Assembly (NCBI GenBank): GCA_031213475.1
Contig: JARUPZ010000011.1
Coordinates: forward strand, 5,568,513 to 5,632,512
Reading direction: 5' to 3'
Length of the DNA: 64,000 bases
Origin: Nereocystis luetkeana
Lineage: Eukaryota > Sar > Phaeophyceae > Laminariales > Laminariaceae
Below are positions 6,201-62,960 of this stretch, piece by piece; positions within the stretch are counted from its first letter, which is position 1, and each line of letters begins with the position of its first letter. The notes beneath the pieces were generated by a model. The model did not search any database and was not told the origin of the DNA. It saw only the letters and a program-made list of their open reading frames with translations. The position numbers and the translations under genes are program-made.

Positions 6201-9200
6201 ATGCGCGGTCAATGGCCAAATGACTGAGGCAGGCAACGAATGAGTACGCCCCCCGCCCCCTGATGTTGGGGGGGGAAAAGGCCTATTACGGGGGACCATG
6301 GTAAATAGGACCAAATATTGTTACTAAAAATAGCGAAATGTATAGGTTTTTGTGTTTACCGTAGGTCCTATTTATTATGGTCTCCCGTCATAATAACTTG
6401 TGGTGCAGATAAGACTCACCCGGTCTTGAGACGAATGACTTCGAAAGCAGAGTAGCATAACTTGTGCAGGTAGCAAAAAGGGTCACCTCTTTTAGAACCG
6501 CAACCCTCCGTTCTTAGGGTCAAACTACTTGAAAATAGAGTGTCACAGCTTGTGCAGTAGCAAAAGGGCTATCCATCCTTTTATAGAGTACTGCACTGCA
6601 CCAGAAACCTGCATCCAAGTCTAGATCCAAGTCGTTCTGTCCCCAATTCTCCCCCCGATGGGAGTGCAGTCCTAAATGGGGATAAGAGGGTAGTCTGATA
6701 GCTCGCTCGAGACCCTCAGCAAAACCACGCAGCTGAGACTCGGCCACGGCGGGGGGGAACAGGCGGGAGGGGGGGGGGGGGGGCGTCGCATACGCATCCA
6801 GCCTGTTTCTTCGCTCTGCTACGTACTCGAGATAAATAATAATTTTAAAAAAACTCAACAAAAACAAAATCTTAAGTGAAACTCTGCCCACAACGATCAC
6901 CCTCGTGCGCGGACATCCCATGCGCAACCGCCCGTTCTATCTATTAACTTATCACGCACGTTCTCAAAAGGAACCCGACAAAAAAACAAAATGGTGTAAC
7001 TGTAAACGGGAACAATCCAAGTGTCTGTCTGCTACTCGCCTGGGACACGAGTAGGTCGGCGACCGTTCGAGTGTCCCCCTCCCCTGCCTCCAACCCCCTC
7101 TCCTCGAGGTCGTCCGCCTTCCGCACTTCGTCCAAAAATGACGTCGAGTCCACCACAGTCACCAGGGTGTCCACGGCGTACACCCCCCCCCCTCCTCCGC
7201 CTCCCCCCGCGGCCGTACCGGTACCGGTGCCAGCTATCTCGACCATCACCCCTTCTTCTTTTTCTTCTTCTCGCCCTACGTCGCCAGTGTCCCCGTCGCT
7301 GACTTCCCCTTCGGCGGATAAGCCGCCGCCCTCGCTGCTGCTGCTGCTGCTGCTGCTGCTGCCGCTGCTGCTGCTTGGGCTTGTCGCTAGCGCCTGCGCC
7401 ACCGGTGTCGGGTCCGAAATTCCGGTGGACTCGATGATGAGGTGCCGGCATTTTCCATCGCGCGCGATGGCCTCCACCTGGACGCACAGCACAACGTGCA
7501 TTACAGCACCGCACAGAAATGGCGAGGTAGGGGCGCACTAGCGTCCATCAGTACTCTCGATACCACACAACATCATACCACGCGCTCCAGAGTGCACGGA
7601 TCGCGCTCGGACCTCGGCCAATGTGTCCGGACGGGCTTCCCGTGTCGGCTACTCGGCGTTTCGCCTAAAAAGCGCTCATACGGAGAGCAAACTTGGACAA
7701 AAGTACGAAACATTCACAAAAGCACAACTAGTAATACATACCAGGTACCAGGTACCAGGTATGGTATATGTATGCGTACAAGGGTCTTGCGGCTGACGCC
7801 GCCCGTTCAATGTAGCGAGCTCAAGACCTTGGTGGTGGCTGACGCCTATCTACCTGCTGTGGTATTTTTAATAGGGGATGTTTGGTATACGTCGGACTGG
7901 GGACATGGTTGCCCGACGGGAAAATTAATGGCAGCAACAACCACAAGCGATCACCGGAAAGTAAAAAAAAAACACCACCATATAAAAAAAGGTCATGCCA
8001 TATTCATGGTCTAGGCGGTATACCATTGCAAGAACCGCGTCAATATGTTTGCAAGTAATTTTTAGGTCCCGAGAGAGGGACACAGCAGCGGTAAATACCT
8101 CTCTGGACGGCAATTTAAGCACCGTTGGGTATCCATATTTATGTACAAACGCTCTACCTGGTATATATTTTTCACCGAAAGTGGTGAGTTACAACTGCAC
8201 CAGCGCTTCGAGGGTAACGCACTGCAGCTGGAAGAACAATTTGAAGAAATTAAAGCGGGTGGACACTGCTAGCAGTGGTAGATTGAGTGGCTCGCCTCCC
8301 GCTGCACCAGCGCCGCTTCGGGGATACAGACTTACTCGGAACTAGGCCTAGAAACGAGAGCAGGTGGAAAACTGCCAGCGGTGGCGGTTTCAACGGCTCC
8401 GGCTCAGCTTGAGCTTCACCAGAGATCCCCCCCTCTGCACACCACGCTCTGGTTTGGGCTACTCGCACGCACGCACACACGCACGCACGCACTGCTGCTG
8501 GGAGACTCACCTCCAGGAGAAGGTCATCGAGAAGCGTGCAGCAGATGCAACCGCCTTGCATCGCCACTGCCACGCCGCCGCCGCCGCCGCCGCTGCTGCG
8601 CTGCTGCTCCTCCTCACTGCCCACCGATCTGATATCGGTGCCGAGAAGACCGCCTGCTTTTCCCTCCCGCGCTTCCGGCCGTATCTGATCCTCACCGAGT
8701 GTGAGAAGCTGAACGTCGATGTTCACATCAGCCTGGGAGTTATATGGCGCGAGAGCGGCGTGCCGCCGTGGGATGGGATGGGGTGGGGGGGGGGGCGGGG
8801 GGCGGGGCGGGCGAATGGGTGGGTGGTTGGGATGGTGAGTGGGTGGCGGGAGGGTACGCCCATAATAAACGGCTGGAGCATTTGACGGGCGAATGGAATG
8901 GAACTGGTTTCTTGTGTTGGACGAGCGTGCAGCAGGTGCTATTCATAACTATGACTACGAGGTGCGCTGGTGAGCTTTTTGAATTTCTCCACACAAGAGA
9001 TACTACATGACTACGACAACTGTCCAGAGCAGATGGAGCGACGGAGTAGCTCGCGAGTACACACAGCGCCCTGCCGGATTTTACTCGTAGCCGTTGGTAG
9101 CGCCACGCCTCGATTTCTCGCCGAGGAGTCTTACACTCGCATAGGATGCGCGCGTGTGGCCCCACCCCAAAAGACGCCGCGGGCGGTGGTTGGCCGAAGT

Positions 9201-62460: not shown

Positions 62461-62960
62461 TTTGAAAGAAAACTTTTTGGACTTCGTGTTCCCATTGTCA
62501 TAGGCCTCATCATTTGTTTTTCACTTCGAAAGGTCTCGTTGAAATCCTTCCAACAGACGCCTTGTTCGAAGTTTGCACCCCTTCCCGCTCAAAGAGAAAA
62601 CCAGCTTGCAAAATTCGTCGACGTACTGGGTACGACAAGCACAACACGCCCACGCCCTCCAACCTAGACTCCATACATATATTTACAATTTCCAGGATAG
62701 TTTCTTCGGGGAGCTTCCCTCTGTACGACCTAATCTATATAACCGGTATTTGCGAATTACGGTGTACGACCTGTATGACCATACACGTAAAACAGTAGAT
62801 ATCTGGTACCTGGTATGATTTACGATATACCAGGTGTGCAGGTGGGCAGTGGTCCCTCTATAGTCCCGGTTGAGGACCGGTAGTGCCGGCGAAGTCGCTT
62901 GGCACAACAGGCGTCTATTCGGCTCGTGCACAGCGACCCCCAACCATGTCCTCGAGCAAG
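62460..62960. other. Intergenic DNA, no gene seen
   Basis: Mixed composition; TACCTGGTA near 62808. No gene supported. Confidence 0.5.

Follow-up and report, generated by a model that had tools for sequence, protein, structure and literature searches.

The scar TAC[A/T]GTA left by the Sleeping Beauty transposon arises by an A:A mismatch. The cuts that release Tc1/mariner elements fall 2-3 nt within the element, and these bases remain in the scar (PMC7827188, PMC2170065); excision in Sleeping Beauty and Tc1/mariner leaves 3' overhangs of 3 nt, which the footprints match exactly (PMC7827188). Here we analysed a 9-base word, TACCWGGTA, in a 64,000-nt stretch of the Nereocystis luetkeana genome (contig JARUPZ010000011.1, assembly position C11:5568513-5632512), this whole stretch being called the window. 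Judged from sequence, the word is very probably what a cut-and-paste DNA transposon with 5'-CCAGG ends, targeting TA and cut with a stagger of about 5 nt, leaves behind on excision, and copies of the word are called scars hereafter. As in Sleeping Beauty and Tc1/mariner, TA would be both target and duplicated sequence, and the scar would consist of terminal bases held as overhangs on both flanks; unlike in those systems, the insert is CC[A/T]GG, 5 nt long, and no transposase or intact element was found.

Other described systems also differ from what is seen in N. luetkeana. Scars of grass Stowaway elements keep 1-4 bp, and insertion beside an old scar has been described (PMC1925063). In the Stowaway miniature inverted-repeat transposable element (MITE)/Osmar5 system five distinct scars are recorded at one intron, and in rice 8 of 94 putative excisions were perfect, the rest carrying deletions, filler or both (PMC4423477); unlike these footprints, one scar form dominates here. 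The pogo-type element Passer duplicates TA and leaves scars of 0-4 bp (PMC9976928), and it resembles our case in the TA duplication, in the shortness of its scars and in that pogo-type PF03184 matches are present in this genome, but the scar described here is longer and uniform, and the readable pogo-type families of this genome end in CAGT. In the brown alga Ectocarpus, mariner-Tc1 elements form 17 families with almost 12,000 copies, mostly MITEs, which shows, in another species, that an alga can hold many TA-type elements; the word stems "footprint" and "palindrom" are absent from that text (PMC12477816). Finally, the cyanobacterial HIP1, GCGATCGC, is a short palindrome found genome-wide far above chance, with a suggested tie to DNA methyltransferases (PMC4390886); unlike HIP1, TACCWGGTA is another sequence and arises by a 7-bp insertion at TA.

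The window contains 43 exact copies of the word, in line with the at least 40 counted by eye in the initial annotation, whose 25 listed coordinates were all correct. Both centres are about equally frequent, with 22 copies of TACCAGGTA (centre A) and 21 of TACCTGGTA (centre T) in the window, and A:T at 54:66 in a 264-kb sample consisting of the window and 200 kb from elsewhere (one 10-kb stretch from each of contigs C1-C20). The chance expectation, previously put at about 0.5, is 0.38-0.47 for both words summed under Markov models of order 1-3, and TACCWGGTA has the highest excess of all 9-mers in the window (43 against 0.39, z 68; runner-up z 32) when low-complexity words are left out and at least five occurrences are required. 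A genome-wide count, which had been proposed as a check, returned 182,395 exact copies in 465,085,209 bases, where the word reversed, taken as control, has 1,744; the count is above background by a factor of about 100 rather than near it. The density is 0.392 per kb assembly-wide and 0.672 in the window; the 200 kb from elsewhere hold 77 copies, two of the 20 stretches being without any. One in 78 TA dinucleotides of the window and one in 142 in the 200 kb are in scar form, and among all TA-N5-TA words in the 264 kb CCAGG/CCTGG alone stands out (120 against 22 for the next). It was also rightly observed that the word is its own reverse complement around W, that copies often overlap by two bases (five neighbouring pairs in the window at 7-bp spacing) and that no single word-containing repeat family explains them: the contexts differ, some sites lying inside MITEs, and one repeat family containing the word is rejected on this ground. 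The initial annotation was thus supported in part, the word being real and genome-wide, but it offered no mechanism. One process seems to account for the copies, namely exact 7-bp insertions at TA that resemble transposon excision scars.

The overlapping copies resemble a 7-bp tandem repeat, and overlapping doublets with equal centres exceed mixed ones (see below), as might be expected of a microsatellite with a 7-bp period; chance or an assembly artefact may be considered along with it. Yet 103 of 111 arrays in the 264 kb consist of a single copy, copies occur in 18 of the 20 stretches drawn from 20 contigs, and the genome-wide count stands far above that of the control word. The probability of such an origin is practically negligible, and microsatellite or chance as a full explanation is rejected on the 9-mer excess, the genome count and the single-copy arrays.

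The evidence for insertion comes from related repeat copies. When the flanks of each site were joined by TA and related copies were then sought, a copy spanning the joined flanks was recovered for 12 of 127 sites in a sample larger than the window, and for 8 of the 12 at least one such copy had a plain TA without gap. Among the relatives of the repeat around site 20079, two show a plain TA, with a small separate gap nearby, and a third reads TC. The scar at 37846 lies in the D19 MITE, and when other copies are aligned to it without gaps, 19 of 23 alignments have a plain TA there. Sites 57495 and 57565 belong to a tandem array with a 70-bp unit, another unit of which reads plain TA. In a control test with full flanks, the removal of low-complexity flanks left 110 scar sites and, for comparison, 956 other sites of the form TA-N5-TA. 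A related copy short by exactly 7 bases was found at five of the seven scar sites that had any related copy (37846 not being among the seven), compared to 8 of 206 such other sites (Fisher p 7e-6), while a related copy with all 9 bases was found at one of the seven compared to 159 of the 206 (Fisher p 0.001). As related copies lacking the word mostly carry plain TA, the word is an exact insertion of 7 bases, CCWGG plus a second TA.

Excision of a transposon would produce such an insertion in the following way. The element would insert at TA, duplicating it, with ends reading TA/CCAGG...CCTGG/TA, and upon excision each flank would retain the element's first bases as a single strand, CCAGG, most simply through a 5-nt staggered cut. 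The two CCAGG ends would then anneal (C:G, C:G, A:A, G:C, G:C) with a mismatch only in the middle, and the A:A mismatch would be converted to A or T by repair or replication, leaving TA-CC[A/T]GG-TA, which is the original TA plus 7 bases. If the annealing were out of register by one base, the product would be TACCAGGGTA or its complement TACCCTGGTA, and a hot TA, still usable after excision, could be struck again and come to carry overlapping scars.

The slipped form allows the sequence of the ends to be read, since a one-base slip between CCAGG ends should yield TACCAGGGTA or its complement and not TACCTGGGTA, and one between CCTGG ends the reverse. In the hot-TA context described below (AAACC before TA) there are 432 places with no T after GG, and the 100 listed include 49 TACCAGGGTA and 2 TACCTGGGTA. 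The genome-wide centre-A bias of the extra-G form TACCWGGGTA had been predicted from these places and is observed: counted on both strands, the form has 13,000 occurrences and its control 771, and the first 100 listed have centre A in 93 cases and T in 7, or 86:7 (p 2e-18) once a regularly spaced tandem series of seven is subtracted, with 9 A and 0 T in the larger sample that holds the 127 sites. This points to element ends reading CCAGG, for 3' and 5' overhangs alike. The product expected of a slipped 3-nt overhang, TACCATGGTA, occurs twice in that sample against nine TACCAGGGTA. With a stagger of 5, scar and overhang would coincide in the manner of Sleeping Beauty, and a stagger of 4 with one filled base per side would give the same products. 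One form dominates that sample, with 127 exact copies compared to 9 extra-G forms, 15 TACCGGTA and 12 TACCSGGTA.

The flanks of the 111 collapsed arrays in the 264 kb (both flanks pooled) differ from those of ordinary TA at +1 (T or C, p 6e-12), +3 (T, p 9e-7), +6 (T, p 4e-15) and +7 (A or T, p 7e-14); A at +2 differs too, positions +5, +8 and +9 differ weakly, and +10 to +15 show no difference. Scars favour a symmetric AT-rich target, and a flank preference is the kind of trace that an integrase leaves. Counts allowing up to one mismatch are 367,383 for the word and 66,255 for the control, so that one-mismatch copies above control number about 120,000, or 0.67 per exact copy. If this excess represents decay by substitution, a typical scar is several per cent diverged and most are not fresh.

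These data bear on whether the word might instead be a functional iterated palindrome that selection or biased repair maintains across the genome, such as a HIP1-like binding or methylation-linked site. A near-perfect palindrome in very high copy number, in unrelated surroundings and containing CCWGG, is what such a site would look like, but the copies originate by an exact 7-bp insertion with TA duplication and not by substitutions, the one-mismatch copies look like decay, the centre-A extra-G variant fits end joining, and the flanks show a target-site preference. We regard this explanation as very unlikely, and a HIP1-like site is rejected on the insertion evidence in favour of the excision scar.

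Repeated use of one TA is seen in D19, a MITE of about 109 bp with ends TTACGGGGGACCATAGT.., represented by window 37798-37911, by further window copies and by copies at L130, L134, L136, L141, L143, L146, L149 and L153. Its internal TA, in the context AACC-TA-TATATTT, is a hot target of the scar-making process. Thirty D19 alignments, each 70 bp or longer and drawn from the window and the samples, include four copies with the insert. It always occupies the same TA, its centre reading T, A, A and T in the four, and in two of these it shows slight decay. The four copies are 75-87% alike; the closest relative of three of them lacks the insert (in one case at 96%, across a partial copy), and for the fourth there is a tie, to two decimals, between one relative with and one without it. 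We read this alignment pattern as suggesting recurrence at a hot TA and not one inherited insert. The overlapping doublet TACCWGGTACCWGGTA occurs 15,917 times genome-wide against 2 for the control, where about 72 would be expected from random scar placement, an excess that would arise because a TA left in a hot context gets re-used. In the first 59 distinct places its centres are AA in 23, TT in 17, AT in 14 and TA in 5.

The same doublet recurs within single bacterial genomes, one metagenome-assembled genome of Chitinophaga and one of Acidimicrobiia, at six loci each (L038, L041, L044, L063, L065, L070 and L011, L018, L051, L073, L080, L083), possibly as an unrelated palindromic repeat. Scans for the doublet matched 9 stretches of viral contigs and at least 118 stretches of genome contigs and are not used as evidence.

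Several observations weigh against the word being an excision scar and are collected here. Only 12 of the 127 sites allowed an empty-site comparison, and four of the 12 were without a plain-TA copy; among those four, site 57565 matched only another scar-bearing unit and site L139:9111 matched a copy reading TACCTGG. Mild enrichments that the scheme does not specifically predict are seen for TACCSGGTA (12 against 2.5), TACCGGTA (14 against 4.1) and forms one base short (19 against 9.6 expected). The excess of equal centres in the doublets (40:19, p 0.009) suggests that some are copies made by 7-bp slippage. The 5-nt stagger read from the scars lies outside the 2-3 nt given for Tc1/mariner in the papers cited above and, as the stagger differs and no element is known, we do not file the system as a member of that group. 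The earlier placement of the copies in introns and spacers fits the observations in that no scar falls inside the four Pfam-matched open frames of the window, but a coding depletion is not established: frames of at least 150 aa, which are not reliably genes, hold 34 of 120 scars against 32.9 expected, and longer frames, to which the same applies, hold 10 against 13.7 (200 aa) and 2 against 5.2 (250 aa).

The search for a parent element adds to these points. An inverted-repeat search of the 264 kb (16-bp ends, 14 matching, up to 4 kb; not run over the whole genome) found a sole TA-flanked case starting with CCAGG, and this joins two scar arrays. Pairing of half-sites inside the window gave no parent, and half-site pairs within 3 kb comprise only L134:2208-2236, of 29 bp, and the weak L152:1163-2539, of 1,377 bp, both CCTGG-ended. 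The former, TACCTGGCATAAATAATATAAACCAGGTA, has outward half-scars 15 bp apart and would be either two mutated scars or a tiny CCTGG-ended remnant; the latter has outward half-scars TACCTGGCA.., with 7 of the next 10 bases alike and the likeness stopping further in. Half-sites without a following TA, GTA or GGTA show no TACCAGG excess (37 compared to 64 TACCTGG). In the hot-TA context, no centre-A continuation recurred beyond MITE sequence among the 100 listed of 432 places, where two centre-T continuations recurred, three times and twice; with T next (84 of 84 places), one continuation was seen thrice and another twice. The thrice-seen continuation is a duplicated contig and not an element, since two of its three places, when compared, proved identical along at least 1,964 bp. 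This identical pair, G000:C26:8760400-8762400 and C350:4300-6300 (1,964 bp), reflects a duplicated or uncollapsed contig.

Transposase domains PF01359 and PF13358 gave no matches in this genome, PF01359 being silent in control genomes also. The pogo-type PF03184 gave 28 matches, and the 11 of the 28 loci that were read include two families with readable ends, both ending in CAGT and TA-flanked (CAGTGGGG and CAGTACCGGCC); given these ends, no CCWGG scar would be expected from either by this scheme. The CAGTACCGGCC family comprises L163-L165 and L166:309-2286, the last of which has gone into the second of the two TAs that bound a TACCAGGTA scar, so that scars themselves serve as targets. The CAGTGGGG family comprises L156 and L158, and the L158 copy likewise follows CCAGG-TA. 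TACAGTA/TACTGTA, the scars expected of the CAGT-ended elements, number 94 against 37.7 in the Markov model, but TACGGTA/TACCGTA is also high (64), and hence we make no claim for them. The parent of the CCWGG scars may be extinct, rare, or from a family outside those searched.

The missing parent would also be accounted for by two other origins. In the first, the same scars would result from programmed or developmental excision of TA-bounded elements, the parents residing in other nuclei or another life stage. The many scars and their uniform joining fit this as well, but many copies are decayed like inherited sequence, the MITE copies with scars show only the limited likeness given above, and there is no positive sign of programming, so that an extinct or rare parent is simpler; we consider programmed excision most improbable. 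In the second, a transposase or nuclease would break the DNA at TA and 7 bases would be added in repair, no element ever having been inserted. Such abortive end capture could give a similar target preference and slip variant, but we know of no activity of that sort, and added bases that match an element end would still require an element. It is, in our view, highly improbable, and excision of an inserted transposon with CCAGG ends is preferred to both.

The scars and gene pieces of the window are listed below. Its eukaryotic nature is shown by Pfam, which among the ten frames scanned finds pieces of genes for a CobW-type GTPase, an aminotransferase and a cation-efflux protein. Rfam and tRNA scans of the window returned no hits, and neither did scans of viral contigs with two window repeats. 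A repeat of about 345 bp lies at window 49003-49329, 52172-52417, 52836-53015 and 54587-54812; it is 92-97% identical on other contigs (L137, L140, L145, L146, L150 and L155 against L169), likeness that suggests it has probably spread recently, and by eye its start (GGTTCAAGTGGTTAACC.. GGTTCGAGCCC) resembles a tRNA-derived short interspersed nuclear element. At window 44188-44900 a 10-bp unit of the AAGACAAGAC type is repeated in a long array, with occasional steps of 15 bp, and 53063-53752 holds two similar (ATT)n arrays.

Table. Putative excision scars and Pfam-matched exon pieces in the 64,000-nt window.
Position	Feature	Basis or related copies
102..110	scar TACCAGGTA	exact match
3411..3419	scar TACCAGGTA	exact match
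7739..7761	three overlapping scars at 7739, 7746 and 7753, all with centre A	exact match
8155..8163	scar TACCTGGTA	exact match
9743..9751	scar TACCTGGTA	exact match
11463..11482	two scars, 11-bp spacing (11463 A, 11474 T)	exact match
13282..13290	scar TACCTGGTA	exact match
13535..13543	scar TACCAGGTA	exact match
13999..14007	scar TACCTGGTA	exact match
20079..20087	scar TACCAGGTA in repeat	plain TA in related copies 19194-19289, 31220-31311
20831..20839	scar TACCTGGTA	plain TA in related copy L141:2725-2821
23241..23249	scar TACCAGGTA	exact match
26818..26826	scar TACCTGGTA	exact match
27319..27334	double overlapping scar, centres A,T	exact match
28619..28627	scar TACCTGGTA	exact match
29562..29570	scar TACCAGGTA	exact match
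31594..31602	scar TACCAGGTA	exact match
35187..35195	scar TACCAGGTA, 3 bp past break-off of D19 copy 35081-35183	D19 alignment
35592..35600	scar TACCTGGTA	exact match
36826..36834	decayed scar TACCAGGTG, hot TA of D19 copy 36779-36893	D19 alignment
37846..37854	scar TACCTGGTA, hot TA of D19 copy 37798-37911	D19 alignment
45694..45702	scar TACCTGGTA	exact match
48357..48365	scar TACCTGGTA	exact match
48495..48503	scar TACCTGGTA, just past D19 copy 48387-48490	D19 alignment
48987..48995	scar TACCTGGTA	exact match
51260..51268	scar TACCAGGTA	exact match
51445..51453	scar TACCAGGTA	exact match
51731..51754	two scars, 15-bp spacing (51731 T, 51746 A), directly before D17 MITE copy	exact match
52762..52777	double overlapping scar, centres A,T	exact match
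53018..53033	double overlapping scar, centres A,A	exact match
53825..53833	scar TACCTGGTA	exact match
56155..56163	scar TACCAGGTA	exact match
56559..56567	scar TACCTGGTA, just past D19 copy 56450-56556	D19 alignment
57495..57503	scar TACCAGGTA, unit of 70-bp tandem repeat	plain TA in further unit (alignment 57575-57686)
57565..57573	scar TACCAGGTA, next unit of same 70-bp tandem repeat	repeat alignment
58283..58291	scar TACCTGGTA	exact match
62807..62815	scar TACCTGGTA	exact match
6944-7537 (-), 11647-12402 (-), 15861-16259 (+), 40511-40981 (-)	exon pieces: CobW-type GTPase (two), aminotransferase, cation-efflux	Pfam

The excision scars described in the papers cited here are low in number, diverse or difficult to read (PMC1925063, PMC4423477). 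Footprints of this kind are known, but to us it is new that they are so many and so clean, that the overhang can be read from them and that the parent is absent, no earlier description having been found in the literature searched. A fuller picture, which we put forward tentatively and hold somewhat less probable than not, is that of a TA-targeting lineage with an unusual 5-nt, nearly self-complementary cut and clean re-annealing that mostly left one scar, visited about 1% of the TAs in 465 Mb (an extrapolation from the proportions in the window and in the 200 kb from elsewhere) and survives, if at all, in few copies. The extra-G variant would read out the end sequence of an element that is itself not seen. 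About 182,000 exact and uniform scars can be counted, dated by their decay and mapped, and questions that usually lie beyond the reach of genome scans, the coming and going of cut-and-paste elements without net gain, the preference for particular TAs and the end joining of the host, would then become testable, as would the share of scars, with about 1.3 Mb of bases added, in the non-coding change of this genome.

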